The position numbers and the translations under genes were made by a program. A DNA stretch of 64,000 nt from Candidatus Krumholzibacteriota bacterium (GTDB lineage: Bacteria > Krumholzibacteriota > Krumholzibacteriia > Krumholzibacteriales > WJIX01), in contig JAXHNR010000002.1 in NCBI GenBank assembly GCA_034520215.1, positions 718,642 through 782,641 of the forward strand. Reading direction: 5' to 3'. The notes under the pieces were generated by a model, which was given only the letters and a program-made list of their open reading frames with translations, did no database searches and had not been told where the DNA came from. This document shows positions 15,995 to 35,802 of the stretch, piece after piece (within the stretch, counting starts at the first letter, position 1; each line of letters opens with the position of its first letter).

Positions 15995-16005
15995 AAGAGA
16001 TCATA

Positions 16006-18501
16006 ATGAGCGGCAGCATCGAGAAACGGCTTTCCGGGATGTTCGAGAAGGACCGGATAGTGTTCTGGTATGACAGGGAGCTTGAGCTCAGGGATGAGTT
16101 TGAAGAGCTGATGATCCCCGGAGTGAATAAGCTGGTGATTGACAACAATGAATTCGGTATCAAGTACACAGTGCTCCGGGAGAAGACGGACGATAAATTT
16201 CTGCTCTATCATGAGGGGCCTGAACCTGAAGATATCAGGAACTGGCTTTTGGATATAAAACTGGCGAATGGGGTGTTCCATACAGATCAGGTATCTATCT
16301 GGTTGGATGAGCTGGGGTTGGGCTCTGAGTTCACAGATGTGCTGCAGGGACATGTAGAGTTTTTCAATGCCGGGAAACGGCGTGAAGCTCTCATGAAGAG
16401 CCTTCCCAGGACGGTAAGCGAAAAGAAGCTGAAGTTGAATATGCTGGGGGTATGCGCTTCTGCGGAACCTTCGATCAATGATGTTCTGGAAAGTCTGCTG
16501 GAGGAGCTTTCTGAGGAGAAAGACAGTAAGTTCAGACTTATTGAAAGATGCGGACTGGACAGATTTCTCTGGGGTCAGATGGAGGCGCTTTTCGGGTACA
16601 GCTCGGACAAGCCGGGCGTGCGCGATTTTGCCATTGAACTGTTCAAATCCTGCTGGGCAATGGGGGCAGGAGATACTCCCCGCCTCTATGATGAGGCGCT
16701 GATATTTCTGAACAGATGGAAAAACAACAGAAAGAGATATGAATCTTTCGAGAAGCTTTCTTCAGAATACTCCAGTTTATTGAGCATTGAGAAAGATCTT
16801 GTGGGAATGGACTACCTTAATCTGGTAGATCTGGATTACTTTGAGGTAATAGACCGAAAAATACTCAGCGAGCTTGTAGGGCAGGTAACTGATGAGACCA
16901 TATCAGCTGAGGACTGCGCGGAAATTGTTCGTAAACGCAGGCAGACTCACTGGTATGAGAATTACAGGCATTCTTACGAAGCGGCTGATTGCGCTTCCGA
17001 ATTCCTGCAGAAGATGAATAATATCTCGCTGGAAGTTGAATCCGCCTCTCAGGGTGTAAAGGCTTATGCTGAAACCTGGTTCAGGATTGACCAGTTATAC
17101 CGAAAGTTTATATGCTATCTTAATCAGTCCGGTCACAGGACTCTTTTGGGTACCCTTTATGAGAAAATCGAGAATATATATAACAATAATTTTCTCCTGA
17201 AGCTTAACAATAACTGGCAGAGGGTTGTGGATAGTATGGATAAGTGGAGCGCGTCCGGGGTGAAGAGCCAGAGAGAGTTTTATGAGAAAAGAGTATGGCC
17301 CTATCTGGCTGATGAAAAAAAGATTTTTGTGGTCATATCGGATGCCATGCGTTATGAAGTGGGTGAAGAGCTGGCAGGGAGGATCACGGGAGAAGACCGG
17401 TTCAACGCGGAAACCGAGCCGGTACTGGGGATGCTTCCCAGCTTTACTCAGCTTGGAATGGGAGCGCTTCTTCCCAATCGGAAGCTTGAGATCGTTGATG
17501 ACCGGTCAGGGAAGGTGCTGGTGAATGGTCTGGACTCTCAGGGCAGCGTCAACCGTGGTAAGATTCTTAAGAAGGAACTGGATCAGAGGTCACTGGTTAT
17601 GCCGGCTGATGATTTCCTGAAAATGAACAATGACGATGCCCGAGAGCTGATTCGCGATAACGATATCATATATTTTTACCATAACAGGATCGATGCCGCC
17701 GGAGACAGAAAGACAGAGACTAAGATATTCGAAGCTGTGGAGAAAACCGTCGAAGAGTTGATGCTGATGATAAGAAGACTGACATCTGCAAACGCAAATA
17801 ATATTCTGATCACCTCTGATCATGGATTTATCTATCAGGACAGGGAAATTGATTTAAGTGATTTTACCGAACCTGTTCATAGGGAAGAGGATGTTTTCGT
17901 ATGGGACCGGAGATATATAATAGGCAGAAACCTTTCAGATCACCCCAGCTTGCGTAAGTTTTCGGCGAAGGAGCTGGGGCTGGAAGGCGACCTGGAGGTT
18001 CAGATCCCCAAATCCATAAACCGCCTCCGGCAAAAGGGCTCCGGAAGCAGATACGTTCATGGTGGAGCATCGCTGCAGGAAGTAGTATTGCCGGTTATCC
18101 ATGTGAATAAGAAGCGAAAGAGTGATATAAGCACCGTAGGTGTTGATATCCTGGGCGAGCCGAACAGGGTGATCTCATCCGGCCAGCATACCGTGGTGTT
18201 CTATCAGACAGAACCGGTGGGGGGAAAGAAAAAGCCGATAGAGCTGCATGCGGGGTTTTACAATGCGGATGGAGATCTAATCTCCGAAGAGCACAAACTC
18301 GTTTTCAATTACGAATCTGAAAACCCAAGAGATCGTGAGAAAAAGGTTAGATTTATATTCTCCAGAGATTCGGAAAAGGCCAAGGATCAGGAAATCGTGC
18401 TGAAGTTACAGGAGCAGATAGCTGACACATCTCACATGAAAGATTATAAGACCGCGCATTATCAATTCAGAAGATCGTTCACCAGTGATTTTGACTTTTA
18501 G
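16006..18501 (+). CDS. pglZ: BREX phosphatase-fold protein PglZ
   Basis: An 831-residue protein with the alkaline-phosphatase-superfamily PglZ domain: VVISDAMRYEVGEELA (about residue 445), TEPVLGMLPSFTQLGMGALL, and the late metal-ligand motif ITSDHGFIYQDRE (about residue 604). It has an N-terminal domain with EKDRIVFWYDRELELRDEF, common in PglZ. PglZ is the other defining BREX core gene besides PglX and is needed for phage exclusion; the natural substrate is not established. The C-terminal ~150 residues are beta-rich. It is embedded in the operon, with brxL 11 bases downstream. Confidence 0.94.
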   Translation: MSGSIEKRLSGMFEKDRIVFWYDRELELRDEFEELMIPGVNKLVIDNNEFGIKYTVLREKTDDKFLLYHEGPEPEDIRNWLLDIKLANGVFHTDQVSIWLDELGLGSEFTDVLQGHVEFFNAGKRREALMKSLPRTVSEKKLKLNMLGVCASAEPSINDVLESLLEELSEEKDSKFRLIERCGLDRFLWGQMEALFGYSSDKPGVRDFAIELFKSCWAMGAGDTPRLYDEALIFLNRWKNNRKRYESFEKLSSEYSSLLSIEKDLVGMDYLNLVDLDYFEVIDRKILSELVGQVTDETISAEDCAEIVRKRRQTHWYENYRHSYEAADCASEFLQKMNNISLEVESASQGVKAYAETWFRIDQLYRKFICYLNQSGHRTLLGTLYEKIENIYNNNFLLKLNNNWQRVVDSMDKWSASGVKSQREFYEKRVWPYLADEKKIFVVISDAMRYEVGEELAGRITGEDRFNAETEPVLGMLPSFTQLGMGALLPNRKLEIVDDRSGKVLVNGLDSQGSVNRGKILKKELDQRSLVMPADDFLKMNNDDARELIRDNDIIYFYHNRIDAAGDRKTETKIFEAVEKTVEELMLMIRRLTSANANNILITSDHGFIYQDREIDLSDFTEPVHREEDVFVWDRRYIIGRNLSDHPSLRKFSAKELGLEGDLEVQIPKSINRLRQKGSGSRYVHGGASLQEVVLPVIHVNKKRKSDISTVGVDILGEPNRVISSGQHTVVFYQTEPVGGKKKPIELHAGFYNADGDLISEEHKLVFNYESENPRDREKKVRFIFSRDSEKAKDQEIVLKLQEQIADTSHMKDYKTAHYQFRRSFTSDFDF

Positions 18502-18512
18502 AGGGATTAGAT

Positions 18513-20543
18513 ATGAACTATCTGGATGAGAAGATTACAGAAGTATTCTCCGGCCTGGTGGTCCGTAAGGACCTGGTTAAACTGGTCAAGGGGAACGCCA
18601 TTGTGCCAACCTACGTGCTGGAGTACCTGCTGGGGCAGTACTGCGCTACCAGCGACGAGGAGAGCATCAGCTCCGGCATAGAGACAGTACGGGAGGTTCT
18701 GCGAAAGCATTTCGTACACCGAAACGAAGCGGAGCTGGTTAAATCGAGGATAAGAGAGCAGGGCCGGCACAAGGTCATCGATAAGATAAGCGTACGGCTT
18801 AATGACAAGACCAATACCTATGAGGCCTCTTTCTCCAACCTCGGGATCAAGAAGGTGCTGGTCAATTCTGACACGGTCAAGAAACATCCCAAACTCCTTC
18901 TTACAGGAGTGTGGTCCATAGCAGACCTTGAGTTCGAGTACACCGAGGATTCCAGGGTATGCCCTTGGATCATGAGATCTCTCAAACCGATCCAGTTGTC
19001 ATATTTCGATATAGATGAATACCTTGATAAGAGAAAAGATTTCAAGACCGAAGAATGGATCGATCTTCTTATTCAGAGCATCGGATTCGACCCTGAGAAG
19101 TTCACCCGGCGCGGCAAGCTGCTGCAGCTGGTCAGGCTGATCCCTTACTGCGAAAGGAACTACAATCTGATAGAGCTCGGCCCCAAGGGAACTGGCAAGT
19201 CTCATATATACTCTGAATTCTCGCCCCACGGTATTCTCATATCGGGCGGCGAGGTGACGGTGCCGAAGTTGTTTGTTAATAATTCAACCGGTCAGATAGG
19301 GTTGGTTGGCTTCTGGGATACAGTCGCTTTCGATGAATTCTCCGGGAAGAAGAAGCGTTCCAACAAGGCCCTGGTGGATATCCTGAAGAATTACATGGCC
19401 AACAAATCATTCTCCAGAGGTATAGAAACACTGGGAGCCGAGGCATCCCTGGCTTTCGTCGGCAACACCAGACATAACGTTGAATACATGCTCAGGCATT
19501 CCGACCTCTTCGACGAGGTCCCCCATCAGTACCATGACTCCGCCTTCTTCGACCGGCTTCATTTCTATATTCCCGGATGGGAAGTTGATATTATCCGGGG
19601 TGAGATGTTCTGCGATGGGTATGGCTTTGTGGTGGACTACCTGGCGGAGATACTCCGTTCTGTCAGGGACCACGACTACAGCCAGTTCTACAGTGATGAT
19701 TTCGAACTGTTCCCGGAGATTTCAACAAGGGACAGGGACGGTATAAATAAAACCTTCTCGGGGCTTCTTAAGATACTGTACCCCAACAGGGAAGCTACCA
19801 GAGATGAAAAAAGGGAGATACTAGAATTTGCAATAGAGGGCCGCAAGCGCATCAAGGACCAGATCATGAGGATTGATCCGACCTATACGGATGTCAGGTT
19901 CGGCTATATTGACCTTGACAGCAAAGAGGAAATTCTCGTAAGGACGATGGAGGAGGAGAAATTCCCGCAGTTCTACGGAAGCGTTGGTAAGCCCTATCCT
20001 GAAAAATCAGCAGAAATGGATAAAAGAGCTGATAATAAGAGGGTTATAAAAAACGATATGGAGGTTAAATACCTGAGAACTCTGATAACAAGAGGTGAAA
20101 ACAAGAATCTCGAATTTAAATCATCACTCAGGTGGGATTATTCTAAAAACAAGAAGAACAAGAATCTGCAGAATAATGTAGCAAAAACGATAGCCGCATT
20201 CTCTAATACAGAGGGTGGAATTCTTCTTATCGGTGTCAGTAACAACGGAGAAATATTGGGGATAGAGAATGACCTTAAGAGTCTGGGAGGAGACAGGGGC
20301 CTGGACGGCTTCCGGCTCCAGATAGATGATATAATATGCAAGAAGCTGGGAACCCCTATTACAGCCAATTGCAAGGTCAAGATTATTGAGATCGAAGGGA
20401 AAAAGGTCTGTCATATAGATGTTTCCAGTAGCTCAAAACCTATATATGTACACGAAAATGACTTCTTCATCAGATCCGCGGCCTCAACCCGACAGCTGAC
20501 CACGAAGGAAGTGGGCGCTTATATCAGGGAAAGGTGGGGGTAG
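18513..20543 (+). CDS. brxL: BREX AAA+ protein BrxL with a C-terminal AlbA_2/Schlafen-type domain
   Basis: A 676-residue protein. Residues 1-~500 match BrxL: N-terminal domain, Walker A GPKGTGKSH (223-231), a Walker B-like VAFDEFSG (271-278), FVGNTRHN, and the RIDPTYTDVRFGYID segment. Residues from about 518 instead match the AlbA_2 (Schlafen-type) domain: ENKNLEFKSSLRW, VAKTIAAFSNTEGGILLIGV, NGEILGIEND, VCHIDVSSSSKPIYV, FFIRSAASTRQL. The BrxL proteins I know carry a Lon-protease-related C-terminal region instead, so this looks like a domain replacement. BrxL binds DNA and forms hexamers during phage defence. The start has an AGAGGGATT ribosome site. It is the last BREX gene, followed by a short palindrome at 20583-20594. 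Confidence 0.92.
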   Translation: MNYLDEKITEVFSGLVVRKDLVKLVKGNAIVPTYVLEYLLGQYCATSDEESISSGIETVREVLRKHFVHRNEAELVKSRIREQGRHKVIDKISVRLNDKTNTYEASFSNLGIKKVLVNSDTVKKHPKLLLTGVWSIADLEFEYTEDSRVCPWIMRSLKPIQLSYFDIDEYLDKRKDFKTEEWIDLLIQSIGFDPEKFTRRGKLLQLVRLIPYCERNYNLIELGPKGTGKSHIYSEFSPHGILISGGEVTVPKLFVNNSTGQIGLVGFWDTVAFDEFSGKKKRSNKALVDILKNYMANKSFSRGIETLGAEASLAFVGNTRHNVEYMLRHSDLFDEVPHQYHDSAFFDRLHFYIPGWEVDIIRGEMFCDGYGFVVDYLAEILRSVRDHDYSQFYSDDFELFPEISTRDRDGINKTFSGLLKILYPNREATRDEKREILEFAIEGRKRIKDQIMRIDPTYTDVRFGYIDLDSKEEILVRTMEEEKFPQFYGSVGKPYPEKSAEMDKRADNKRVIKNDMEVKYLRTLITRGENKNLEFKSSLRWDYSKNKKNKNLQNNVAKTIAAFSNTEGGILLIGVSNNGEILGIENDLKSLGGDRGLDGFRLQIDDIICKKLGTPITANCKVKIIEIEGKKVCHIDVSSSSKPIYVHENDFFIRSAASTRQLTTKEVGAYIRERWG

Positions 20544-22071: not shown

Positions 22072-22926
22072 TCAGTCAGATTCTATTACGGTTCCGTGCT
22101 GCTGGGTGTACGCCTTGGCCAGCTCGGTGCCCAGAAAAACAACCAGGGTGGAGTAGTATACCCAGAGAAGGCCTATTACCAGGGTTCCCGCGACTCCGTA
22201 TGCTGAGCCGATCCCGGTAAAGGACAGGTAACGCCCGATAGCCCATTTGCCGAAATGGAAAAACAGCGCCGTAGTGACCGCCCCGAAAGCTATATCCCGC
22301 CACGCCAGTCTTGCATTCGGAACGTAAAGCAGCATGGCGCCGAACAGTATTATATATACGAGCATGGTTCCCAGAGTACTCAGTATACTTATCAAGTTGC
22401 CCATATCTTCGAACACAAAGTTCAGGACGGTCTTCATCAGTACCGAAAGCATCAGTATAAGCCCTACTGCAAGTATCATAATCAGGGATACCAGCCGCTT
22501 CTTGAGCCAGTTTTTGACAGCTCTGCCAGGTTTCGATCTTACTCCCCAGATCCGGTTCATCGCCTTCTGCAGCTGTACGAATACCGCCGTGGAGGAAAAG
22601 AGCAGAATGGCGATGCTTATCAGGGCCGATATCCTCCCAGCCAGCTGCTGCTGCTCTATATTGGTCAAAACCACGTCTATGGCGCGCGAGGCGGCCGGGC
22701 CAAGGAGCAGGTTCAGTTCCGCTACGATCTCCTGGTGGAACGATGCTGAAAACAGGCCGGTAACCGAGAGCAGAAGAACCAGAAGGGGGGCAATGGAAAG
22801 TGTTGCGAAGAAGGCCACCGCCCCTGCCAGGGTAAAGATATCGTCCTCGAATATATTCCATACCGCCTTCTTCAGCATCAGCAGCACACCCGGGATCTTT
22901 ACCGAACGGTCCTTTGATTCTGACAT
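22072..22926 (-). CDS. yihY: YihY/virulence factor BrkB family inner-membrane protein
   Basis: A 284-residue polytopic protein. I choose the ATG at 22926, because AGGGGAG lies 7 bases upstream on this strand (an in-frame ATG at 22947 would lack it). About six membrane segments are visible, including FTLAGAVAFFATLSIAPLLV, ISALISIAILLFSSTAVFV and LVSLIMILAVGLILMLSVL. The conserved 'RAVKNWLKKRL' loop, 'ARLAWRDIAFGAV' and the ending 'GVAGTLVIGLLWVYYS' match the YihY/BrkB family (once mislabelled RNase BN). Function unproven. A dead partial duplicate lies at 4640-4907. It is followed directly by a MATE fragment. Confidence 0.9.
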   Translation of the reverse strand: MSESKDRSVKIPGVLLMLKKAVWNIFEDDIFTLAGAVAFFATLSIAPLLVLLLSVTGLFSASFHQEIVAELNLLLGPAASRAIDVVLTNIEQQQLAGRISALISIAILLFSSTAVFVQLQKAMNRIWGVRSKPGRAVKNWLKKRLVSLIMILAVGLILMLSVLMKTVLNFVFEDMGNLISILSTLGTMLVYIILFGAMLLYVPNARLAWRDIAFGAVTTALFFHFGKWAIGRYLSFTGIGSAYGVAGTLVIGLLWVYYSTLVVFLGTELAKAYTQQHGTVIESD

Positions 22927-23052
22927 AATTATTCTCCCCTGGATCAATCTGCCGGTTCAGAATTCACACGTAGCTGGATCCAACAGAATGATTTTATTTG
23001 ATATGAGGTGCTCTTTCAAGATTAATCGGCTTTGGGAGGCATTAAGGTAAAG

Positions 23053-23167
23053 ATATTTAAATAACACTTTACAACTAAATGCGATACGGATAAAATGCCA
23101 ATGTTTCTTAAGCGGACGAAATATCTAATAATCAGGATATCTGGAAACCGAGTATACATAGTTATGT
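23053..23167 (+). promoter_or_regulatory. Promoter plus attachment-site module, copy 1 (attI-like), in front of Hachiman
   Basis: A 108-base block (23053-23160) is repeated at 28784-28891 with five differences. It carries TTTACA (23068-23073), a 17-base spacer and TAAAAT (23091-23096), a near-consensus promoter. It ends directly at GTTATGT (23161-23167), whose exact reverse complement ACATAAC lies at 27398-27404 after hamB. This is the arrangement of an integron cassette promoter and attI site. No integrase gene is adjacent: the 126 bases between it and the YihY gene hold nothing I recognise. Confidence 0.65.
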
Positions 23168-23191
23168 GTATGAACCAAGAAATGGAATCGA

Positions 23192-24031
23192 GTGACAATG
23201 GCAGAGAAACAACCAGACGAAATATTGGGATCGCACCCTGAAGCTGATGCGTTTGGTTGTCATACTCAGGCAAAAGACACGAATACAAATTCAGATGTTC
23301 CGCATCGCGCTCTGAGCCAGGATGATGGAAGCCGTAATGACACGGTGGGGCAGCTCCGAAAAGCGTTAATCCGGCATCATACCAGCGTGGAAATGCGAGC
23401 GCGAGATCAGCGAAAGAGAGAGGATCTGCGTCAGCTTGGCTACCCCGTATCCGACGCAGGGACGCACAGATTCCCGCATGCCGACAAAACCCGAAAGGGC
23501 AACTTGGCCGAAGTGTTTCTCGCGGAATATATTGGTGCAGGCGCGGATGCCGACCTACCCATCTACCGCCTCCGATACAACCCCAATGTCGAACAATCCA
23601 TGAAAGGTGATGACGTTTTAGCGTTCGATTTTCATTCTAAGCGGGTGCGCATCCTTGTGGGAGAGGCCAAATTTCGTGGCACCTCATCGAAAGCGGCCGT
23701 CCAAGAGATTGTGGCAGGTCTTGTTCGATCACACCAAGCAGGATTACCGGCATCTCTTCAGTTTGTTGCCGACCGACTTTTCGAAATGAAAAATATAGAC
23801 CTCGGTCGCCGAGTCGAAAACTGCGCCCTCTTGATGGCACAGGGGAAGCTCGATCTGCAATACGTTGGTTTGCTCTTGAGCAATACAAATAGTAAGGCGA
23901 ATGTAGACCGGCACACCAATAGTGAACTGCGGAATCTCGTCATGATCTCTCTGGGAATTGATGACCCCAGTAGTCTCGTCCGCGACTGTTTTGACGGGAT
24001 TGAGGAGGATGCCTGTGGCGATTCCGACTGA
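23192..24031 (+). CDS. hamA: Hachiman defence nuclease HamA (DUF1837)
   Basis: A protein of up to 279 residues. The DUF1837/HamA core starts at about residue 100: KGNLAEVFLAEYIGAG, LPIYRLRYNPN, then the nuclease-like residues MKGDDVLAFDF (about 137-147) and VGEAKFRG (about 154-161), which fit a PD-(D/E)xK site, then AVQEIVAGLVRSH. In Hachiman, HamA is held by the helicase HamB and degrades DNA when phage damage is sensed. The GTG at 23192 and ATG at 23198 are both possible starts, and neither has a strong ribosome site. The gene overlaps hamB. It lies just inside a cassette-like boundary at 23161. Confidence 0.88.
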   Translation: MTMAEKQPDEILGSHPEADAFGCHTQAKDTNTNSDVPHRALSQDDGSRNDTVGQLRKALIRHHTSVEMRARDQRKREDLRQLGYPVSDAGTHRFPHADKTRKGNLAEVFLAEYIGAGADADLPIYRLRYNPNVEQSMKGDDVLAFDFHSKRVRILVGEAKFRGTSSKAAVQEIVAGLVRSHQAGLPASLQFVADRLFEMKNIDLGRRVENCALLMAQGKLDLQYVGLLLSNTNSKANVDRHTNSELRNLVMISLGIDDPSSLVRDCFDGIEEDACGDSD

Positions 24032-27000
24032 CATTGCCCGCAACATTCTTGAGGATTATCGAACATCGAGAATCAAGAACCTGTTCGCACAATCGAACGC
24101 GAGCCATGTTCTCTATGAAGTGGGCGAGGATGAAGGTAATTTCCCCCGATTTGATCCCGCTCTTATCGACAAAGTCACGATGTCGGCCTATTCGATTCTC
24201 GCTGCGGGTGTAAGCCTTGCCGAGGAAGTGCCCTCGCCGGAGGCAATTGCGGCAATGGAAGAAGCCGCCACCCTTCTGAATAACGTACATCTGCCGCGTG
24301 CGCAGAACGATCCGGCAAGTGGGTTCCATATCCTCGTGGCATCAATGGCCTTTTATGCATCAGGGCAGTACTCACGGGCCTTTGTATCAATACGAAAGGT
24401 CGAGGCTCAGACGGACCTCGCGCGTATGGTCGCTTTGTTCATTCGGAAACGTCCGAATGAACTGATCGGGCAACTGAACCCGTATCTCCTAGCAGACCTG
24501 AGCGATTTCAATGACCCTTGGACTATTTGCGACCATGCTGTGACGACCGCGATTGCCAGATCCCTCTCGCTGATTCTTGAATATTTCGCTACTGGGGAAT
24601 CGCGGCACCTTGAGACAGCAGGCAGCACATTGAATATTGCTATGCGTCTTGCCCAGGATTACGAATCCCCAGCACTATGGTGGATCGCACGGCTTCTGCG
24701 TCTGATGATTCGGGGAAATGGCGATGCGTCATTGTGGCGTATTCTGCCGCCATTCTTTCCGGATGACTTGTCATTGCTGCGCCGATACATCCGACTGCTC
24801 TTGTTTAGCAAGCAATCCATCACGGAACTGTGGTGTTCTCAGCGCGAAGCCGTCCCTGTCGCTCTGGATCGGACAAGGCATGGCGCTGTGATAAACATGC
24901 GAACAAGTTCTGGTAAGACACGCGTCGCCGAACTGGCGATCCTTCAAGCCCTGCATGCCGATCCAAATGCAAAGATCCTGTATCTTGCTCCCTTCAGGTC
25001 TCTTGCATTGGAGATTGAGCAGACACTTGGTCAGGTCTTTGACTGGTGTGGGTTTCATGTTTCCCATTTATACGGAGGCTTTCGACTCAGTTCCGTAGAC
25101 AGGCAATTGGCGGAAGATTCAACCATCACCATCGCAACTCCCGAAAAAGCCAGGGCCATTTTACGATCTTCGCCGGAGCTTTTTGATAACGTAAAGCTGA
25201 TTGTGGTCGACGAAGGACACCTCATTGGGGCAAACGAGCGGTTGGTCAAGAATGAGCTGTTCTTGGATCATCTACGATTCATCGCCAGTGTCACTGATTG
25301 CCGGATAATGATGTTGTCAGCGGTTCTTCCAAATCCAGCGCATCTCGCCGAGTGGGTTACTGGCGACTCCGAAAATGTTGTTCGTTCGGAATGGAAGCCA
25401 TCGGCAGAGAGATTCGGACTGCTTCGATGGCAAGGCGATAACGTTCGCATTGATTGGCGTGGCGACTTTGAGTCGTTCAACCCCCGGTTCGTCCAATCTG
25501 GCCCACTGGGCTGGGGAAGACGCCGGAAGCCCTTTCCCAATAATAAGAACGAGGCTATTGCCGCAACTGCTGTTCGATTGGCCTCTGTGGGACCAGTCAT
25601 GATTTTCTCGGCACGCGCCAACAGCATCCCGGGGCTGGCGAAGGCAGTCCTTTTGGCCCTTGGAGAAAATCCGGAAGAACACCGATGGCCAGAAGTGATC
25701 TGGAAAGCATTTCATGCAACGTGCGAAGAAGAGCTTCCCGGGAATGCTATTGAATTGAAGGCAGCACAATATGGTGTTATTTGCCACAGCAACCGTCTTC
25801 CGACTCAAGTTCGCATGGCAACGGAACGGCTGATGCGGTCAGTGCCACCCAAAATCATCATCGCCTCATCGACGCTGGCACAGGGGGTCAATATAGGAAT
25901 TTCTAGCGTGATCGTTGCCACTCCGTATCAAAGAAGGCACCCCATCGGTCATCGGGACTTCTGGAATATTTGTGGACGTGCCGGACGCGCATTCGTGGAT
26001 GGCGAGGGGAAGATTCTGTTCGCAATCGATGAAACAAGACAAGCGTGGCAGATTCGGAAAGATCGGCAATTGGCTGAAAAGTATTTCGGTGCTGCGAATG
26101 CTGATCCCGTTGAGAGTGGATTGCTGTTTGTGCTCCATCTCATTCGCAATATTGCAAAGAAAGCTGGTGTCAATTTCAACCAATTGATGACCATGGTTGC
26201 CGAGAATGACTTTTCTGGGTTGGGCGAGGACGCCGCCAGATGTTCGGGGATTCTTGATCTCATTGACGATGGTTTGCTGGCACTTCAGGAGGACGCGAAA
26301 GCAAACCCAGGAAACGAGGAGCCTGAAAATTGGGCGGATAATGTGTTTCGCGGTTCATTGGCTGCTATTCAATCCGAAGATGGCAAATTCAATCTCACCA
26401 AAGATGAATTCCTGAAGTTCATACAAACGCGGGCTGAGAACATTCTTCGAACGTGTCCAGATTCCGGAGAGCGCAAAGCATACGTTGTAACAGGATTGCC
26501 TTTGTCGGCAGCGAAGAATCTATATCGGGACAGGGATGAGTTTCTCCAAAAGGCTCAAGAAATCGCCGACGCTGAACAGTCGATTCAGTCCATTGTTGAG
26601 TTCGTCGCATGGCTGGAAGAATGGGCTCGTGAGCACTCGACCGCCGTTGTCGAGGAGCTCCCGGAAAACGAAATAATGGATCTGGTTCGTGAACCGTGGG
26701 TCGCCGGGACGCCCATGCGCGATATTCTTGACGAGACAGCCAGTGCCGATGCCATCTGCAAGAATATTTACGGTTATCAAGTCCCTTGGCTTGTCCATGC
26801 AGCTGCGCAGCAAATAAGAAAAATGGGGAATGAGGAACTCTCCGATACCCTGGCGTCGGTGGCACTACTGGTCGAACTTGGTGTTCCCAACGAAGCCGCC
26901 GCATGGATCTTCCTGGCAGGTATTCGCTCACGTGCTGCTTCAACGGAATTGGCCCAATGTGGCGTCGATCTCGGTAGATCTCCATCGACCGTTCGGAGAC

Positions 27001-27344
27001 GGCTCCGAGACAAAGAAACATTGGATGAGCTGGCATCATGCGTAAGCGAATCAACGCAGGCATGGCTGGAACTTCACTGGGCTGAATCCGCCCGAGAAAA
27101 GGTCAATCTGCCTAAATTCCCGTCCTTTGAGGCCGAAAAGATAGAAAGCCATGACACGCTCCTCGTTCGCACAGATGGGGACAGAACGTATCTCTGTTCC
27201 CCAGATGGTAGACAACGGATGGCCGTCAAAGTGTCGAAAAAGTGGCCATTTGATCGAGTTACCGACGACTATCGGTTTTCGTTTGTGAAGTATGACGGAA
27301 GATTTCAGTTCACTATTCGATCCCCCAAGGATATTGTCGATTAG
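24015..27344 (+). CDS. hamB: Hachiman defence helicase HamB
   Basis: A superfamily 2 helicase of about 1109 residues. I prefer the GTG at 24015, because AGGAGG (24003-24008) is six bases upstream; the ATG at 24009 is too close and one at 23958 lacks a ribosome site. Motifs: Walker A MRTSSGKTRVAE (about residue 295), VVDEGHL (397, a DEGH box), LSAVLPNP (motif III), ASSTLAQGVNIG (motif V) and CGRAGRAF (652, motif VI), a Ski2-like set. A ~280-residue domain precedes the motor. It forms the Hachiman system with hamA, which it overlaps by 17 bases. G+C is about half, higher than in the following cassettes. Confidence 0.9.
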   Translation: MAIPTDIARNILEDYRTSRIKNLFAQSNASHVLYEVGEDEGNFPRFDPALIDKVTMSAYSILAAGVSLAEEVPSPEAIAAMEEAATLLNNVHLPRAQNDPASGFHILVASMAFYASGQYSRAFVSIRKVEAQTDLARMVALFIRKRPNELIGQLNPYLLADLSDFNDPWTICDHAVTTAIARSLSLILEYFATGESRHLETAGSTLNIAMRLAQDYESPALWWIARLLRLMIRGNGDASLWRILPPFFPDDLSLLRRYIRLLLFSKQSITELWCSQREAVPVALDRTRHGAVINMRTSSGKTRVAELAILQALHADPNAKILYLAPFRSLALEIEQTLGQVFDWCGFHVSHLYGGFRLSSVDRQLAEDSTITIATPEKARAILRSSPELFDNVKLIVVDEGHLIGANERLVKNELFLDHLRFIASVTDCRIMMLSAVLPNPAHLAEWVTGDSENVVRSEWKPSAERFGLLRWQGDNVRIDWRGDFESFNPRFVQSGPLGWGRRRKPFPNNKNEAIAATAVRLASVGPVMIFSARANSIPGLAKAVLLALGENPEEHRWPEVIWKAFHATCEEELPGNAIELKAAQYGVICHSNRLPTQVRMATERLMRSVPPKIIIASSTLAQGVNIGISSVIVATPYQRRHPIGHRDFWNICGRAGRAFVDGEGKILFAIDETRQAWQIRKDRQLAEKYFGAANADPVESGLLFVLHLIRNIAKKAGVNFNQLMTMVAENDFSGLGEDAARCSGILDLIDDGLLALQEDAKANPGNEEPENWADNVFRGSLAAIQSEDGKFNLTKDEFLKFIQTRAENILRTCPDSGERKAYVVTGLPLSAAKNLYRDRDEFLQKAQEIADAEQSIQSIVEFVAWLEEWAREHSTAVVEELPENEIMDLVREPWVAGTPMRDILDETASADAICKNIYGYQVPWLVHAAAQQIRKMGNEELSDTLASVALLVELGVPNEAAAWIFLAGIRSRAASTELAQCGVDLGRSPSTVRRRLRDKETLDELASCVSESTQAWLELHWAESAREKVNLPKFPSFEAEKIESHDTLLVRTDGDRTYLCSPDGRQRMAVKVSKKWPFDRVTDDYRFSFVKYDGRFQFTIRSPKDIVD

Positions 27345-27397
27345 GGGAGTTTCAAGAATAGGTCAATTCGCATAACTGTTGAAAAAAATGGAAAAAC

Positions 27398-27466
27398 ACA
27401 TAACAGTGCCATGCACACGGACGGGAATTCTGCTACGCTCCATTCCCGCCGGTGATGGCCAACGAT
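27398..27466. repeat. attC-like site after Hachiman (3' end lost)
   Basis: It starts with ACATAAC, the exact complement of GTTATGT at the upstream boundary. The arms GCCATGCACACGGACGGGAAT and, later, ATTCCCGCCGGTGATGGC pair with small bulges, as in an integron attC. The closing GTTRRRY box is missing: the sequence runs into the repeat starting at 27464. Confidence 0.55.
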
Positions 27467-27700
27467 GGCGCGGACGCTTCGCGGGGGGTTTTTGGTTGAA
27501 AAACTGATGGAAAGTGTATAAGATAAAAAAAGCTTAACGGGGAAATAGGAGGCGCTCAGCTTCGCGCCATCGGGCTTTGAGGATTACCATCCGCATTCTG
27601 TCCGTCGCTAAAGCGCCGGCCATCATGCGCCTGCAGCGGGCGGTAGGCCCTGCGAGCAAGCTCGCGGCCTCTCCCGCCGCCTATCCGTAAACCGTTTTAC
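27464..27700. repeat. Dispersed palindromic repeat copy 2, probably a large attC site
   Basis: Bases 27464-27687 match 31417-31635 with small differences. The right part can fold as nested stems (GCGAGC-AA-GCTCGC inside GGCC and GGCGG/CCGCC). GCTTAAC (about 27531-27537) and GTTTTAC (27694-27700) would be the outer boxes, with inner ATAGGAGGCGC pairing GCCGCCTAT. The block ends 22 bases before the nuclease gene at 27723. A shortened copy lies at 6559-6640. The region from 27345 has no other gene. Confidence 0.6.
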
Positions 27701-27722
27701 TTTAATTACTTGAGGAAAAAGA

Positions 27723-28616
27723 ATGTTAGAAAAAGACATAGAAAATCTGATAGCAATGTACCCGGAAGAAATATTTAAAGGAGAAGGATTTAAGCTTATT
27801 GAGCAACAGTATTCGGTTGAAGGCAAGAGAATAGATATTCTTTTTGAAGATGGTGTTGGTAGGAAAGTTATTGTTGAAGTAAAAAGAGGAATCTTAAATC
27901 GTAATGCCTCGGGGCAAATAGCTGAATATTATGGAAGATTAAAAAGTAAAAATAAAGATACATTTTATGAAATGATATTATGCGCAAATGTGATTCCTAA
28001 AGAAAGGCGATTATTTTTAGAAAATATTGGGATTGAGTGTAAAGAGCTTGGTATAGCATTTATTTCAGAACTATCAAAAAAATATGACTATACATTTATT
28101 GATGATCGGCCATCATATCAAAATAAACAGCGTGCAAATAATAAAATTACATCACACTATTCTATCGACTCAAATACTGAAGATATTTCTACATGGATTT
28201 TTCAGGGTAATCCACAAAGGTATGATATTTTGAACTCATTATCAGATAATGAGATTGGCAATAATATACATTGGTCTGTCAATCAGCATAAAAGAAAAAT
28301 TAAAAAAAACCATATAGGATTGATCTGGATGTCTGGTAAAGATGCTGGAATCTATGCTCTTACTCGGATAGAAACGGATCCAGCGTTAAGGAAGGATCAT
28401 CCAGCAGAAAGAAAGTACTGGTTGAATGATTCTGAAAAAGAGGAAGCTGTAAGGGTTGAAATGACAATTTTGAAAAGGTTGCTGAATAAACCAATTTTAA
28501 AAAAAGATTTATTGAAAATTAATGAATTGAATAATTTATCAATTCTTCGTCACTACCAGGGAACGAATTTCCCTGTAAAAGATACTGAATGGAAAATAAT
28601 ATCTCAGTTAATATAA
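27723..28616 (+). CDS. PD-(D/E)XK nuclease fused to an EVE domain (candidate modified-DNA-dependent endonuclease)
   Basis: A 297-residue protein with ribosome site GAGGAAAAAG. Residues 1-~125 resemble the NucS/DUF91 nuclease domain: MLEKDIENLIAMYPEEIF, then KRIDILFEDG (Asp about 38) and VIVEVKRG (ExK about 51-53), a PD-(D/E)XK active site. Residues ~154-297 match the EVE domain (PUA-like fold): STWIFQGNPQRYDIL, IHWSVNQHKRKIKKNHIGLI, GIYALTRIETDP. EVE domains bind modified bases, and nuclease-EVE fusions are thought to cut modified phage DNA. Biological role inferred. The gene is AT-rich and forms a single-gene cassette whose attC starts six bases after the stop. Confidence 0.82.
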   Translation: MLEKDIENLIAMYPEEIFKGEGFKLIEQQYSVEGKRIDILFEDGVGRKVIVEVKRGILNRNASGQIAEYYGRLKSKNKDTFYEMILCANVIPKERRLFLENIGIECKELGIAFISELSKKYDYTFIDDRPSYQNKQRANNKITSHYSIDSNTEDISTWIFQGNPQRYDILNSLSDNEIGNNIHWSVNQHKRKIKKNHIGLIWMSGKDAGIYALTRIETDPALRKDHPAERKYWLNDSEKEEAVRVEMTILKRLLNKPILKKDLLKINELNNLSILRHYQGTNFPVKDTEWKIISQLI

Positions 28617-28621
28617 AAGTC

Positions 28622-28752
28622 GTATAACAACGCAATCAACCTGACCAAAAACGCGCATCGATTGTTTTATCGTATTTGCTTAGAGGTAGCGACTGAGAAT
28701 ATAAAGGTTCACTATCCGTTTAGTTTTTGGCGGGTTATCGCAGGCGTTATAC
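28622..28752. repeat. Full-length attC-like recombination site
   Basis: Outer boxes GTATAAC (28622-28628) and GTTATAC (28746-28752) are exact reverse complements. Inside them, the arms GTATAAC...CCTGACCAAAAAC and GTTTTTGGCGGG...GTTATAC pair over ~30 bases with bulges, one arm being one base longer, as in attC sites of integrons. Total 131 bases, similar to Vibrio VCR sites. It starts six bases after the EVE nuclease stop. Confidence 0.8.
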
Positions 28753-28783
28753 GGAAAACAGATAAGAACTTATTCAGTTAAAA

Positions 28784-28899
28784 ATATTTAAATAACACTT
28801 TACAACTAAATGTGATACCGATAAAATGCCAATGTTTCTTATGCGGACGAAATATCTAATAATCAGGATATCTGGAAACCGGATATACATAAGTTATAA
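28784..28899 (+). promoter_or_regulatory. Promoter plus attachment-site module, copy 2 (attI-like), in front of the exonuclease cassette
   Basis: About 95% identical over 108 bases to the block in front of Hachiman. It has the same TTTACA (28799-28804)/17/TAAAAT (28822-28827) promoter and ends at GTTATAA (28893-28899). The exact complement TTATAAC lies at 29678-29684, after the next gene. It therefore marks a second insertion point with its own promoter. Confidence 0.65.
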
Positions 28900-28913
28900 C
28901 ACTGAGGTTGAAG

Positions 28914-29660
28914 ATGAAAGATTTCATCGCAATCGATTTCGAAACAGCCAATCCAAAGAGGGTGAGTGCTTGTGCAATTGGGTATGCTAGAGTATCCAAT
29001 GGGGATATTGTTGAATCAAAAGGGTATCTTATCAAACCTGTTGGAGGGCATGCACCGTTCCAGTCAAAGATTCATGGGATAAAAGAAGAGCATACATGTA
29101 GTCAGCCAGAGTTCTGTGCTCTCTATCCTATTATTGCTGGTATCTTTGATTCACCATTGGTTGCGCATAGTCTATTTGATGAACAGGTACTCAGAGCACT
29201 TGCCCGATACTTCGGAATAGCCATTAATTTTATTTATCATGATACTAGTTCCATGGCAAAAATGCGCTTGCCTGATCTCAAGAACCATAAACTTAAGACT
29301 TTGGTGAAATATTTCAAGCTTCCCACTTTCAAGCATCATGATGCAAAGGAAGATGCTATTGCATGTGCTAGAGTATATTTAAAGTTACAAGATCTTGATC
29401 AAGATAATCCTGTTCAAATTGCAGGTGACAGCAAGACTGAATTCAAAGGACTAATTAGCGATATTCTCGAAGACGATGTTGTCGATTATAAAGAAGCATA
29501 TCAGCTACTCTACTGGCTTGAGGATCACAGAGATATTGCAAAAGAATATGAGGAGCTTACCGAAACAACCAGGCGATTTTTGCAGGATGATGTGCTAGAC
29601 AACATAGAGGCTAAGGCACTGAGAATGATGTTGTTGTACATCCGTGATAAAATATTTTAG
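28914..29660 (+). CDS. DnaQ-like DEDD 3'-5' exonuclease
   Basis: A 248-residue protein. The ATG at 28914 is chosen because GAGG is six bases upstream (a TTG at 28908 would give two more codons). Residues 1-~160 are an exonuclease domain: FIAIDFETANPKRVSACAIG (Exo I, D and E), LVAHSLFDEQVL (Exo II, Asp), and FKHHDAKEDAIACARVYL (Exo III, His-Asp), the DEDDh set of DnaQ-type exonucleases. The last ~75 residues are helical (VDYKEAYQLLYWLEDH) and unassigned. A role in defence or repair is possible from context only. The gene forms a single-gene cassette and is followed by a terminator. Confidence 0.85.
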   Translation: MKDFIAIDFETANPKRVSACAIGYARVSNGDIVESKGYLIKPVGGHAPFQSKIHGIKEEHTCSQPEFCALYPIIAGIFDSPLVAHSLFDEQVLRALARYFGIAINFIYHDTSSMAKMRLPDLKNHKLKTLVKYFKLPTFKHHDAKEDAIACARVYLKLQDLDQDNPVQIAGDSKTEFKGLISDILEDDVVDYKEAYQLLYWLEDHRDIAKEYEELTETTRRFLQDDVLDNIEAKALRMMLLYIRDKIF

Positions 29661-29677
29661 CAGTTGGATAAGTGGTG

Positions 29678-29716
29678 TTATAACTCCTATGAGGCCTATT
29701 TTTGTCAACAGATAAA
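29678..29716. repeat. Cassette-end motif c (complement of the 28893 boundary)
   Basis: TTATAAC is the exact reverse complement of GTTATAA at 28893. It continues TCCTATGAGGCCT...TGTCAA..GATAAA, matching the end of the cassette at 33509 closely and that at 38581 partly. No right-hand attC arm is found. Confidence 0.55.
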
Positions 29717-29730
29717 ATGATTCTGTTCCC

Positions 29731-29757
29731 CGGCGATTTTATCGCCGGGTTGTTTAA
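29731..29757 (+). terminator. Rho-independent terminator after the exonuclease gene
   Basis: Nine-base perfect stem CCCGGCGAT / ATCGCCGGG with a TTT loop, followed by TTGTTTAAT. It would end transcription from the module at 28784. Confidence 0.75.
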
Positions 29758-29760
29758 TTA

Positions 29761-30165
29761 TACATAAGACCGTTTCCCGACTTTGTTTCATGTTAAGGGG
29801 AGCAGGGTTGTGCCCTGCACCAAACTCCTATATTGGTTCCGGCTCATCGGTGATGAACCTGCGAAGCGGAAGCTTCACGACCAAGAAACACATCAGTTCC
29901 CTTATGCCGGATCAATCGAACGGATGGCTGAGTGCCAGAGCACTCTCCAGTTAACGTACGACCCGGGGAAGGGGCAGGAGGCACGATCCTTGTACATATG
30001 TATCCGGAGCGGAGCGGTCATCCAATCTATCGCGAAGGCTCATGATTTAAGTCTCGAGTACCTGGGTTGTGATCTTGGTCACAGACATTGTCCCTGTCTT
30101 ATGGTACTGAGCCGGATCATCATCTGTTACTCCAGTTAGACATTTGGCTTGACCGCCCCCTCCTC
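29761..30165. other. Non-coding stretch downstream of the IS110-type transposase
   Basis: No credible gene. It includes the hairpin GCAGGG-TTGT-GCCCTGC near 29803-29820. As it flanks the transposase pseudogene on its 3' side, it may be the non-coding end of the element, where some IS110/IS1111 members encode their bridge RNA. This is inference and element ends were not identified. Confidence 0.3.
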
Positions 30166-31208
30166 TTAAGTCCCAAGAAATTTATTCATATCAAAGGCCT
30201 TCTTTCTCTTGAGTATGTAATAGACAGCTCTGCCCAGCCTGTGTGCGAGGATGCTGAGAGATTTTGCCTTGCCATGTTTTCTCTCGAGTCTTTTTCTGTA
30301 TTTCATTCCCGCCGGGTTGTCCTTTAGAAAAAGTACGGCAGCTTCAGAGAACGCCCACTTCAAGTGCATGTTTCCGATCTTACGTCCGGAACTCCCATAC
30401 CTCTTTCCCGCCGACTCGCGGGCGCATGCCACGAGCCGGGAATAAGAGACAAAGTCCTGGACCCTGGGAAAACGATTGATGTCACCGATCTCGTAGAGGA
30501 TCACCATAGAGATGATTTTCCCCACTCCATGGATACTTTGTAAAAGATATAGAGCCTGGGGGTCGTGATACCGGGCGGTACGCAGTATATGTCTCTCCAG
30601 ATTTGTCAGCAGCTGGCTGAGGTGATTGATCAGTTCGAGATCAGTTTCGATGCTTCGTCGGACTTGGGGATCGCTGAACTGTTCGGCAATACCCTGCTGA
30701 TGGATCTTCCGGGCTATCTTTTTTCCGAACTCAGGTAGGTTGTATTGAGCATTGGTGTTCTGAATGTGAGCGAGCAGATCGGAGCGTTTTCGCATGAGGT
30801 AGTTTCTACGCCTCATGAGGTCCCGGGTTGATCTCATCTTAGCCGGATAGACATAAGCCATAGGGATCATGCCGCTTCTTAGAAGTCCGGCGATCTTTCT
30901 GGGATCGATACGGTCATTTTTAGCCTTTCCTCCGTGTATAGCTTTCATGTATAATGAGCCCCGAGGACAAAAGGGATGTTCTCTGCAGCGCATAGATCGG
31001 CAAGCCAATAACAGGAAAACATACATTCAGCTGCAACGGCGATATCTTCCCGGTATGGGGCGATAGTGTTTAGGAAGCACCCGGGCTCTGCGCGCGTGTT
31101 GCAGTGTACGAGGACTTCCCCGTGGTTGTCTAGGATGCAGATGTAAATTGATCTTGCGTGAAGGTCGATACCGCAGTAGAATTTATGCTCTTGAGTATAG
31201 AATCTCAT
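30166..31208 (-). pseudogene. IS110-family transposase, broken by a frameshift
   Basis: Two overlapping frames together make one IS110/IS1111-type DEDD transposase. The N-terminal part (from ATG 31208) has FYCGIDLHARSIYICILD, the first catalytic Asp region, and runs to IPFVLGAHYT-stop. The rest (to 30166) continues as LYMKAIHGGKAKNDRIDPRK (catalytic Asp region) through YLLQSIHGVGKIISMVIL (transposase_20 helix-hairpin-helix) to SYSRLVACARESAGKRYG. The frames should join around 30955, so one base has been lost or gained. The reading frame is otherwise intact, suggesting recent inactivation, unless programmed frameshifting rescues it. Confidence 0.88.
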
Positions 31209-31358
31209 AGAGGTCTCCTCCTTTACGGGTTAAGGTTGGTAGCTTCCCATCATACCACTTTGGTATGCTGAGGGGGAGGCCTCAATGAGTATCTATCGTT
31301 ATGCGGCTGACGGTTCTGCCCTGTCACGGATCTGGCAAGAGGCTTCGGCAGGCCGGCA

Positions 31359-31385
31359 GCGGCTCGGCCATTCGGCCAGAGCCGC
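31359..31385. other. Strong GC-rich hairpin between IS110 and the next cassette
   Basis: GCGGCTC.GGCC-ATTC-GGCC.GAGCCGC can form an 11-pair stem with one bulge, in a 31209-31416 stretch with no gene. The surrounding bases (GGCTGACGG ... CCCGCAGTTGATGC) look like further attC-type debris. Confidence 0.4.
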
Positions 31386-31416
31386 GCCAGGCCATCCCGC
31401 AGTTGATGCTGGGAAT

Positions 31417-31648
31417 GATGGCGCGGACGCTTCGCGAGGGTATTTTGGTTGAAAAACTGATGGAAAGGGTATAAGATAAAAAGGTTAACGGGAAAATAGG
31501 AGGCGCTCAGCTTCGCGCCATCGGGCTGCGGATTACCATCCGCATTCTGTCCGTCGCTGCGCGCCGGCCATCATGCGCATGCAGCGGGCGGTAGGGCCTG
31601 CGAGCAAGCTCGCGGTCTCTCCCGCCACTGATCCGCAGCCCGTTAGGA
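31417..31648. repeat. Dispersed palindromic repeat copy 3, probably a large attC site
   Basis: Matches 27464-27687 and shares its stems GGCGC/GCGCC, GCGGAT-TACC-ATCCGC and GCGAGC-AA-GCTCGC. The pair TTAACGGG (about 31484) and CCCGTTAGG closes the structure. It ends at GTTAGGA (31642-31648), which is the exact complement of TCCTAAC after the next two-gene cassette. Confidence 0.65.
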
Positions 31649-31681
31649 CTATAGAAAGTACCTAAAGTAATAGGAGAAATT

Positions 31682-32902
31682 ATGATACAAAAGATTACAG
31701 TCAGTGGTTTTAAATCTTTAAATAAGTTTAGGCTCAATTTTAGAAAAGGTCTTAATGTATTAATAGGCCCAAACGGTGCGGGGAAAACAAATATATGCCA
31801 AGCTTTAGGTATGATTTCCGCTGTATGCGATAACTCAATTGCTGAATATATCATTTCAGTTGGAGGAAAATCATCTCTGTCAACTTTAAGTTCGAATCAA
31901 TCAAGATCGAGGCTGAAAATAGGATGTGTCGGTAACGTTAAAAATGACTTAGAAAAAGAATCAATAGATTTGAAATACAAATATTCTCTAACATTAAGAT
32001 TAAAAACTCAAGGTATGAAGATATATTATGAGAAATTAGAAATACAGAGATTAACAAGAGATCAAATCTACAAAAAGGTATTGACTGCATCAAGAAATAG
32101 TAAGGGTAATGCCAATATTAATATTGTTGATTTGGAAAATATAGGACCTTTAAGAACCGATCTTTTTCAAGAGGAAGGAAAAAGAGAATTTAATTTGAGA
32201 ATACCTGAGATGATGGGGTTTCTTTCTGTTTTATCGGTTTTTATCTATGCGTGCCATTTGGTTAACGCTGACTTGTCTTTTTCTAGAGCTTGGAATATTG
32301 ATCCATATCTTGCTAAACGTCCAACCGATGTATTAGAGCCTTCATCTATGTTATCGGATGGCAGGCGAATGGCTAATGCTCTTCATGAGATGGAAAAAAA
32401 GGGGGGAAAAGAATTTGAAGAAATGAGCCATATATTGGCAAGAATATTACCTGGTTTCAGGAAAATAAATGTTGTTACAAAAACTGAGACAATGCTAAAT
32501 TCTTTCTCAATAACCGATCATAATGATGTTACATGCCCTGCCAATTGTCTTTCCGATGGGACAATCAAAACAATTGCACTCCTTGTTGGAGTTTACGGTC
32601 AAAACGCTTCAACAAACATTATCGAAGAACCTGAAAACTACCTGCATCCATGGGCATGTCAACTACTTATACGATATTTGAGGGATCATTTTCAAAAAGG
32701 AGTTTGCATTATAACAACACATTCAGAAACTATTCTAAATTTAGTTTTTCCTAAAGAAATTGTAATTGTAGAAAATGAGAATGGATTTACAAAAGCTGCC
32801 AGGGCAACAAATAAATCTGGGCTGAAAAAAGCTATAAGCGAATCAGGATTCGGGTGTGGATATCATTATGTTGCAGGAAATTTAGGGGGTACGCCTGAAT
32901 GA
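31682..32902 (+). CDS. ABC/OLD-type AAA ATPase (candidate defence ATPase)
   Basis: A 406-residue protein with ribosome site AGGAGAAATT. It has the RecF/SMC-like N-terminus KITVSGFKSLNKFRLNFRKG, Walker A GPNGAGKTN (about residues 30-38), a late signature-like region CPANCLSDGT, and Walker B TNIIEEPENYLHPWA (about 310). TTHSETILNLVF follows as H-loop. This is the AAA_15/AAA_21 type found in OLD nucleases and in PARIS and related two-gene defence systems. It overlaps the next gene by four bases (ATGA), so the two act together. The cassette is AT-rich. Defence role inferred from gene pairing and neighbours. Confidence 0.8.
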   Translation: MIQKITVSGFKSLNKFRLNFRKGLNVLIGPNGAGKTNICQALGMISAVCDNSIAEYIISVGGKSSLSTLSSNQSRSRLKIGCVGNVKNDLEKESIDLKYKYSLTLRLKTQGMKIYYEKLEIQRLTRDQIYKKVLTASRNSKGNANINIVDLENIGPLRTDLFQEEGKREFNLRIPEMMGFLSVLSVFIYACHLVNADLSFSRAWNIDPYLAKRPTDVLEPSSMLSDGRRMANALHEMEKKGGKEFEEMSHILARILPGFRKINVVTKTETMLNSFSITDHNDVTCPANCLSDGTIKTIALLVGVYGQNASTNIIEEPENYLHPWACQLLIRYLRDHFQKGVCIITTHSETILNLVFPKEIVIVENENGFTKAARATNKSGLKKAISESGFGCGYHYVAGNLGGTPE

Positions 32903-33498
32903 TTGATATTAATTCCACAGTATTTTTAGTTGATGGCCAAACTGAGATAATGGCAATCAAAGCTAAATTTTATATGGAATGCGGTAGTGCGCCAGAATTT
33001 AGAAAAGTTGGATGTAATGGAAAGTCTGTCACTGCCGAAGGTTATGCATCAGCTGCCCTTGGAACACTCAATGCCGTTTTACGAGACAGGTTTTTACATA
33101 TCGTTTGTGTAGTTGACAGAGAAAAAAGAAGGCTTCTAGCTAAAAATTTCGGCAAAAAACTTAGAGAGTCAATAATAAGAAAAGTAGTTGAAAATACTAA
33201 GATTAAAGAAGACGACATTGAAAACAAATTAGTTGTATTTGTACCTGATAGAATGTTTGAGAATTGGATATTGAGTGATATCGAAGGAATAAAATCTTGC
33301 AGTTATTTGATCAAACAAAGTTGTAGACAAAAAAATTTCGAAGGCAAAAATGGTGTGAGAGAATTAAAAAATATCATGAAAGTGCAATACAAAAAATTAT
33401 TGCACGCCAAAAAACTGTTTACCTCCGTAAGAAATAGAGATGGTTGTTTAAATTCAAAGTCATTTAACATTTTCTGTACAGAAATAGGAATTAAGTAA
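32899..33498 (+). CDS. TOPRIM-like (DUF4276-like) partner of the AAA ATPase
   Basis: A 199-residue protein, start coupled to the ATPase stop (ATGA). It has a TOPRIM-like set of acidic residues: VFLVDGQTE (Glu16), HIVCVVDREKRR (Asp73 and Glu75), and MFENWILSDIEGI (Glu121, Trp123), the 'EGxTE ... DxD/E ... ExWILxD' pattern of DUF4276/OLD-type TOPRIM proteins. In OLD and PARIS-like systems the TOPRIM protein is the nuclease or effector released or activated by the ATPase. At 199 residues it is shorter than PARIS AriB, so the pair may be a distinct type. Family call is from motif pattern only. Confidence 0.65.
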   Translation: MIDINSTVFLVDGQTEIMAIKAKFYMECGSAPEFRKVGCNGKSVTAEGYASAALGTLNAVLRDRFLHIVCVVDREKRRLLAKNFGKKLRESIIRKVVENTKIKEDDIENKLVVFVPDRMFENWILSDIEGIKSCSYLIKQSCRQKNFEGKNGVRELKNIMKVQYKKLLHAKKLFTSVRNRDGCLNSKSFNIFCTEIGIK

Positions 33499-33508
33499 TT
33501 TGGATTAG

Positions 33509-33545
33509 TCCTAACTCCTATGAGGCCTTCCCATGTCAAGGGATA
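33509..33545. repeat. Cassette-end motif d (complement of the 31642 boundary)
   Basis: TCCTAAC is the exact reverse complement of GTTAGGA at 31642-31648. The following TCCTATGAGGCCT...TGTCAA..GATAAA is shared with the end at 29678. It begins ten bases after the TOPRIM gene stop. Confidence 0.6.
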
Positions 33546-33559
33546 AAGTTCACCTTTTG

Positions 33560-33587
33560 ACAGCTGCCTGAGGCAGCTGTTTTTTTA
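33560..33587 (+). terminator. Rho-independent terminator after the ATPase-TOPRIM pair
   Basis: ACAGCTGCCT and AGGCAGCTGT form a near-perfect stem (9-10 pairs) followed immediately by a run of seven T. Confidence 0.85.
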
Positions 33588-34203
33588 GATCACTGATTCT
33601 GTCATCTGTCTTAATTTCATCGATCTGGTATAGATAAGCATTCTACACCAAACACCTTCTATGGGGCAAGATGTCAAGACATAATTTCCCCCTATAGCCA
33701 GCGCACATATAATTGCATCCGGCGTCCGTCCCCAGTTGTATGAAAAATAGGTTTAAAATTAATCTTCGCATAAAGATACATGGTATTCGAGGGTTGATAA
33801 GTGAATGTTTGTATTTCAAGTGATTTGTCATCAACCTTCCGATGGCATCCCGGTTGACATCAAAGCATTTTTGTTCTCTGCACAAAGACAGGAACCAACT
33901 TTCTATCGGGGGACTCTATGGTCCATTGCTTTATTCGGTTCTCAAGGGGCATAGCTTATCGACGGGGACTCTGGACTTATGGTCCAGGACCAGTGTTTGG
34001 CTGGATACTCTCCCCTGTAACCATCTAGTTTCCAGGAACGGTTCCACCCAAGACTAATTTTATCTCCTGTATTATTTTTAACTCCAATAGATTTTACGTT
34101 GCGTGTTTTAATTTTTCCGGATTGTACACCTCCTTTGATTTCCAAATTGATAATACAATAGATGCAATTTGCCGTGCGATAGTAAGTCTGGCCAAGTTGG
34201 GTT
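33588..34203. other. Gene-free stretch before the IS3 element
   Basis: About 600 bases with only short, unconvincing open frames on either strand. The direct or inverted bits ACTCTATGGTCCA and ACTTATGGTCCAGGACCAG suggest decayed sequence. I recognise no gene, RNA or integrase remnant here. Confidence 0.5.
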
Positions 34204-34271
34204 TGAACCTCCCCCGTTTTCCTAGACACTGAGAAAAGCTATGTTAAACTAGAGATAGCAGGAGGTGTCGA

Positions 34272-35428: not shown

Positions 35429-35490
35429 CTGACTGTCTGGAATATCGGGGGAAGACCAGGTACTTGCCATACCCTGTGCCACTCATCATC

Positions 35491-35613: not shown

Positions 35614-35680
35614 AATTATACTGCAAAGCTCTCGCTGTATATATTAAAGGTTGCATGAGTGGGAATTAATTTGGTAGTAT

Positions 35681-35788: not shown

Positions 35789-35802
35789 AAGAAAGGAATC
35801 AA

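Follow-up and report, generated by a model that had tools for sequence, protein, structure and literature searches.

A repeated block in an integrase-less cassette array of a Candidatus Krumholzibacteriota genome is probably a relic attI site

The window analysed here is a stretch of 64,000 nucleotides from a Candidatus Krumholzibacteriota bacterium (assembly GCA_034520215.1, contig JAXHNR010000002.1, positions 718,642 to 782,641). A BREX system at 7764-20543 comprises BrxA, BrxB, BrxC, PglX, PglZ and BrxL, with the BrxL match reaching only residue 511 of 676. The window also holds a full yihY gene (22072-22947) and, on the plus strand at 4647-4884, a fragment ~73% identical to the end of the yihY gene of genome G004, which is possibly a partial duplication flanking the BREX region. 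Downstream of the BREX system and the full yihY gene lies an island of gene cassettes (23041-38640).

The first cassette (23161-27464, on the plus strand like all cassettes described here) encodes a Hachiman system, with HamA at 23192-24031 (PADLOC, 5.7e-110) and HamB at 24024-27344 (PADLOC, E = 0); its distal core lies at 27397-27404, where the beginning of element B has taken the place of R'. Element B is a gene-less cassette, the first copy of which (B1, 27464-27693) has the cores GATGGCGC and GCGCCATC. It is followed by a cassette for a protein with NucS_C and EVE domains (27694-28752; gene 27723-28616; Pfam, 5.4e-12 and 2.4e-12), whose attC at ~28622-28752 is a bottom-strand hairpin with a z of only -1.13 and whose cores, GTTTTAC and GTATAAC, pair with one mismatch. 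The DEDDh exonuclease cassette (28893-31298; gene 28914-29660; PADLOC, 6.9e-20) has identical cores, and the arms of its attC, read from the sequence at 29677 and ~31276-31304, are split by an IS110-family element with a transposase in two overlapping ORFs on the minus strand (30166-31208; NCBIfam transpos_IS110, 3.5e-44) that is probably frameshifted. IS1111-type elements targeting attC are already known (PMC11187229). The second copy of element B (B2, 31417-31641), which repeats B1 and folds with a z of -4.8, precedes a HEC-01-like pair (31642-33515) made up of an AAA ATPase (31682-32902; PADLOC HEC-01A, 1.2e-48) and a DUF4276 protein (32899-33498; PADLOC HEC-01B, 8.6e-06), with cores GTTAGGAC and GTCCTAAC and the distal core at 33508-33515. 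Beyond an IS3 transposase (34565-35428) is an IntI C-terminal remnant (35481-35614, plus strand; TIGR02249 at G000:C2:754123-754251, E 1.3e-11), and an attI-like region of a different sequence type (35615-35781, plus strand) fills the interval between the end of IntI and the next cassette start. Two further cassettes follow, one at 35782-36907 (cores GTTAGCC and GGCTAAC) and one from 36908 to about 38640 (cores GTTAGAC and GTCTAAC), the latter with an RNase H-like gene (37003-37449).

Start and distal cores are exactly complementary in the Hachiman, exonuclease and HEC-01-like cassettes, in the two later cassettes and in element B. Because this pairing also holds for the HEC-01-like and the two further cassettes, the island is a true integron-type array. 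According to PMC8618304 (citing Cury et al.), a cluster of attC sites lacking an integron integrase is termed a CALIN, and one way in which such clusters are proposed to arise is by losing a recognisable intI. The island has at least two attC sites, as judged by core pairing and not by IntegronFinder, and its only integrase material is the C-terminal remnant. It is best read as a CALIN, a degenerate integron devoid of integrase, of the type whose intI reads towards attI, and not as a new mobile module.

Two of the cassettes are headed by the copies of a 120-nt direct repeat (23041-23160 and 28772-28891, 93% identical, starts 5731 bp apart). An earlier, sequence-only reading had described the blocks 23053-23160 and 28784-28891 as near-identical, stopping at cassette boundaries and lying beside no integrase, and each of these points is borne out. 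The alignment contains 5 mismatches in 108 positions, its local score is 213 as compared to a maximum of 43 in 200 shuffles, and neither copy is flanked by an intI gene. The first copy, A1 (23041-23160, plus strand), as delimited by the repeat and by alignment to the family described below, is truncated at its left end and runs directly into GTTATGTG at 23161, the exact reverse complement of the Hachiman distal core CACATAAC at 27397 (chance ~0.002). The block of the second copy, A2 (28747-28892, plus strand), ends one base before GTTATAAC at 28893, the exact reverse complement of the exonuclease distal core GTTATAAC at 29677 (chance ~0.001), so that both starts pair exactly with the distal core of their own cassette. 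The possibility that the block is itself an attC was rejected because it folds no better than shuffled sequences (z +0.92).

The nature of the block is indicated by a homologue elsewhere in the assembly. At 405.3-406.0 kb of contig 2, a broken integron-integrase gene is followed directly downstream, on the same strand, by a sequence that aligns to A2 with a score of 87 (maximum 48 in 200 shuffles) and ends at the first cassette core. Because of this position directly downstream of intI, the block is identified as an attI region; A1 and A2 likewise end at cassette cores, without an adjoining intI. A search with the 406-kb attI as query located further copies in the assembly at 560.6 kb on contig 2 and at 615.0, 129.7 and 579.6 kb on contig 1, and the aligned family comprises nine copies, seven from this genome and two from same-genus genomes (G001 contig 160, with a score of 132 to the 406-kb attI against a shuffled maximum of 51, and G003 contig 296, which is incomplete). 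An extra weak match was found on G003 contig 316. The nine-copy alignment reveals a repeat on the left, TATACGGAAAC, to which the right end immediately ahead of the cassette is related, and in the best-kept attI the motif TTTATACGNAAACNGTATA is present at both ends.

The cassettes behind the family copies are mutually unrelated, and include Hachiman, the DEDDh exonuclease, other genes and gene-less cassettes. At the sister loci, the cargo has matching cores and encodes an unassigned 301-aa protein at 560 kb; the proteins at 615 kb and 580 kb are, from a reading of their translations, aldehyde-dehydrogenase-like and methyltransferase-like, respectively. The sequence-only reading had called for a genome search for the block and would have been undermined had the block occurred only upstream of one gene family; homologues were instead found ahead of unrelated cassettes, one of them directly adjoining an intI gene. 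It is accordingly highly improbable that the block is the conserved upstream region of a single gene family or a dispersed repeat unlinked to integrons: the block is intergenic, repeated and bears a promoter-like motif, as such a reading would have it, but the genes that follow are unrelated, every complete copy ends at a cassette core, and one copy lies directly 3' of intI.

Wider searches covered genome collections with one genome per species. A degenerate pattern of the block had a single match in the GTDB r220 genomes, on a contig of 3,448 bp from a Candidatus Latescibacterota MAG, which is probably the same as the G001 copy; no match was found in plasmid records (distant blastn, E 0.01), in viral contigs by exact 21-mer, or, at gathering thresholds, in an Rfam scan of the window. 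No empty site adjoining yihY was identified: G004 has the gene, but synteny extends no further. The attI-like regions at the intI fragment at 1559 kb of contig 1 and at the intI remnant of the window showed no similarity to the block at the sensitivity used, and were left out of the nine-copy family. The former locus (L016, 11232-11729; contig 1, ~1559 kb) represents a second integron lineage, in which the C-terminal fragment of intI is succeeded by a distinct attI-like region and an ORF of 1070 aa.

The TTTACA-17-TAAAAT motif reported earlier for both blocks was confirmed as a -35/-10-like pair at 23068-23096 in A1 and 28799-28827 in A2. Taken singly, such motifs are not beyond chance (3 found against 1.0 expected, and 1 found against 1.5 expected). 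Both hexamers and the 17-nt spacing are kept in A1, A2, G001 contig 160 and G003 contig 296, with the spacer itself diverged; the other attI subtype lacks a conserved TTTACA-17-TAAAAT. The block likely carries a cassette promoter (Pc), the activity of which is predicted from sequence.

As read from five loci of this genome and one same-genus locus, loss of intI in the family is graded. At 406 kb of contig 2, the gene has an internal deletion (profile positions ~111-179, or ~70 positions, are missing) and a shifted C-terminus, and at 560 kb of the same contig mainly the two ends of intI are left. Of the contig 1 loci, that at 615 kb retains the intI promoter and the final codons, that at 130 kb has attI fused to the promoter and start codon, and that at 580 kb has kept the promoter and start but lost the left part of attI. 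Alignments of the intI-promoter region exceed shuffled sequences at four sister loci, although the margin at 615 kb is narrow (34, with a shuffled maximum of 32). For the G001 copy, the alignment falls within the shuffles (score 22, reached by 44 of 300), and the assignment of a promoter there accordingly comes from the multiple alignment only. Beyond the intI promoter, on its upstream side, similarity among the integron copies of this genome (L018, L066, L068, L079, L089) soon disappears, so several integrons of one family lie at different chromosomal sites.

Other intI material in the assembly consists of a 165-aa C-terminal fragment on contig 1, representing the C-terminal half only, and the 560-kb relic. 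Two full-length recombinases near 1.1 Mb of contig 1 read as XerC/XerD types, and a recombinase at 872 kb scores best with a XerA-type model and is under the integron-integrase cut-off. An intact intI, as a complete functional integron would have at the locus or elsewhere, was not found in the whole assembly (two contigs); since this is 97.33% complete, an unseen intI gene is possible.

Because the family members keep such graded remnants, loss of intI from ordinary integrons is the best explanation of the integrase-less state, and the block is probably the attI, with its likely cassette promoter, of degenerate integrons from which intI was deleted. The sequence-only reading holds in so far as the block is attI-like with a plausible cassette promoter; its proposal of a module that itself carries cassettes independently of an integrase is not supported, as the sister copies retain the promoter, start, last codons or an internally deleted gene of intI. 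The sequence upstream of A1 and A2 does not match the intI promoter beyond shuffles and contains no remnant of intI or its promoter, so the loss at these two copies is deduced from the sister loci. The intI remnant within the same island is further support for the intI-loss reading as a whole. In the ancestral integrons, intI would have been transcribed towards attI and the cassettes, and while the integrase was active, circular cassettes such as Hachiman and the DEDDh exonuclease would have been inserted at the G ending the block. A later deletion would then have removed intI, and at A1 and A2 the intI promoter as well, so that attI stayed in place ahead of the cassettes and probably drives their transcription. 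On this reading the island comprises a succession of three degenerate integron units: A1 with the Hachiman, B and NucS/EVE cassettes; A2 with the exonuclease, B and HEC-01-like cassettes; and the intI remnant with its different attI and two more cassettes. We infer this order of events, and the position of A2 as the head of the second unit, from the arrangement of these parts.

The relationship of A2 to A1 bears on this scheme. A1 and A2 are far closer to each other (5 differences in 108) than to any other copy, their identity to the G001 copy being 83-85%, which would fit a duplication of one attI within the island by homologous recombination or local rearrangement in place of two separate integrons. 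Two integrons of the same lineage would be equally alike, however, and the flanks of A1 and A2 are unrelated. In addition, ~25 bp at the left of attI, in agreement with the sister loci, are present in A2 and absent from A1, so A2 is not a copy of the present-day A1. A duplication is thus considered unlikely.

The left edge of A2 is precise. Its attI homology begins at 28747 at G|TTATACGG, which is exactly the R' of the preceding attC, and the alignment to the G001 attI is gap-free over 145 bp from that base. This coincidence of the A2 edge with a cassette boundary exceeds what simple decay demands, and counts against the intI-loss reading. It could be accounted for if an active integrase used a secondary core in the left repeat of attI (T|TTATACGG) as the recombination partner of an attC, and the excised circle, carrying attI, promoter and exonuclease cassette, was inserted behind the NucS/EVE attC. 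The A2 homology runs exactly from that R' to the next cassette start, as a segment moved like a cassette should, and the intI deletion at 130 kb of contig 1 stops within ~2 bases of the equivalent attI point, which is suggestive of a mechanism shared by the two junctions without being proof of one. On the other hand, TTATAC is common to the attC core and to attI, and a microhomology deletion would yield an identical junction; cleavage at the position corresponding to the usual one would fall at the opposite edge of the left repeat; and the intI deletions at the remaining loci are explained without any such movement. Movement of A2 in the manner of a cassette is therefore a tentative possibility, and the broader idea that attI pieces with their promoter are re-inserted through secondary cores, so that one integron seeds promoter-bearing landing sites in arrays, is speculative to a similar degree. 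The A2 junction fits both a second integron losing intI via TTATAC microhomology and integrase-mediated attI movement, the deletion reading being the more probable.

With intI loss as the preferred reading, the island can be compared to known systems. Like other CALINs, it has attC-type cores on its cassettes and no adjoining functional intI; unlike them, the attI and a likely promoter are still recognisable, in seven places in one genome and twice in one array. In the chromosomal integrons of Treponema, intI is transcribed towards attI, and in T. phagedenis attC sites remain after loss of intI (PMC3607928). The 406-kb locus similarly has intI, attI and cassettes in order on one strand, but the host phylum differs, and PMC3607928 focused on attC, whereas relic attI sites are compared here. 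Inactivation of intI by frameshifts, stops or large deletions is common in Xanthomonas integrons (PMC12444791), which resemble the present case in repeated intI inactivation with the array kept; there a single ancestral locus (ilvD) is involved, as opposed to several loci with one attI family. The second attI copy within the array is the unusual part, and a phrase search of open-access literature returned no published array that contains attI in repeated copies.

The within-genome series, from a broken intI to none with attI kept, gives direct sequence support for one proposed CALIN origin, and shows how integrase-less arrays can arise yet keep a possible promoter. It also suggests a route by which stranded cassettes, here including several defence genes, may stay transcribed after the integrase is lost. 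Sites of the attI type show little conservation and are difficult to recognise; the nine aligned copies are material for testing the binding repeats and promoter.

Gene-less promoter cassettes have been described in Vibrio (PMC11014356) and in an oral metagenome (PMC6557892). A2 is alike in effect, placing a likely promoter within the array before a gene cassette, and differs in that it consists of attI sequence and has no attC belonging to it; element B, the promoter activity of which is putative, is the closer parallel. Element B is strongly structured, contains a promoter-like sequence, and has G|ATGGCGC in place of the GTT core, with the distal core GCGCCATC. It is also present at L018 (10692), L066 (9899), L014 (3432), L061, L062 and L063. 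In this and other genomes of the order it occupies attI or attC junctions, and it is often the first cassette. Its non-canonical integron core merits separate study.
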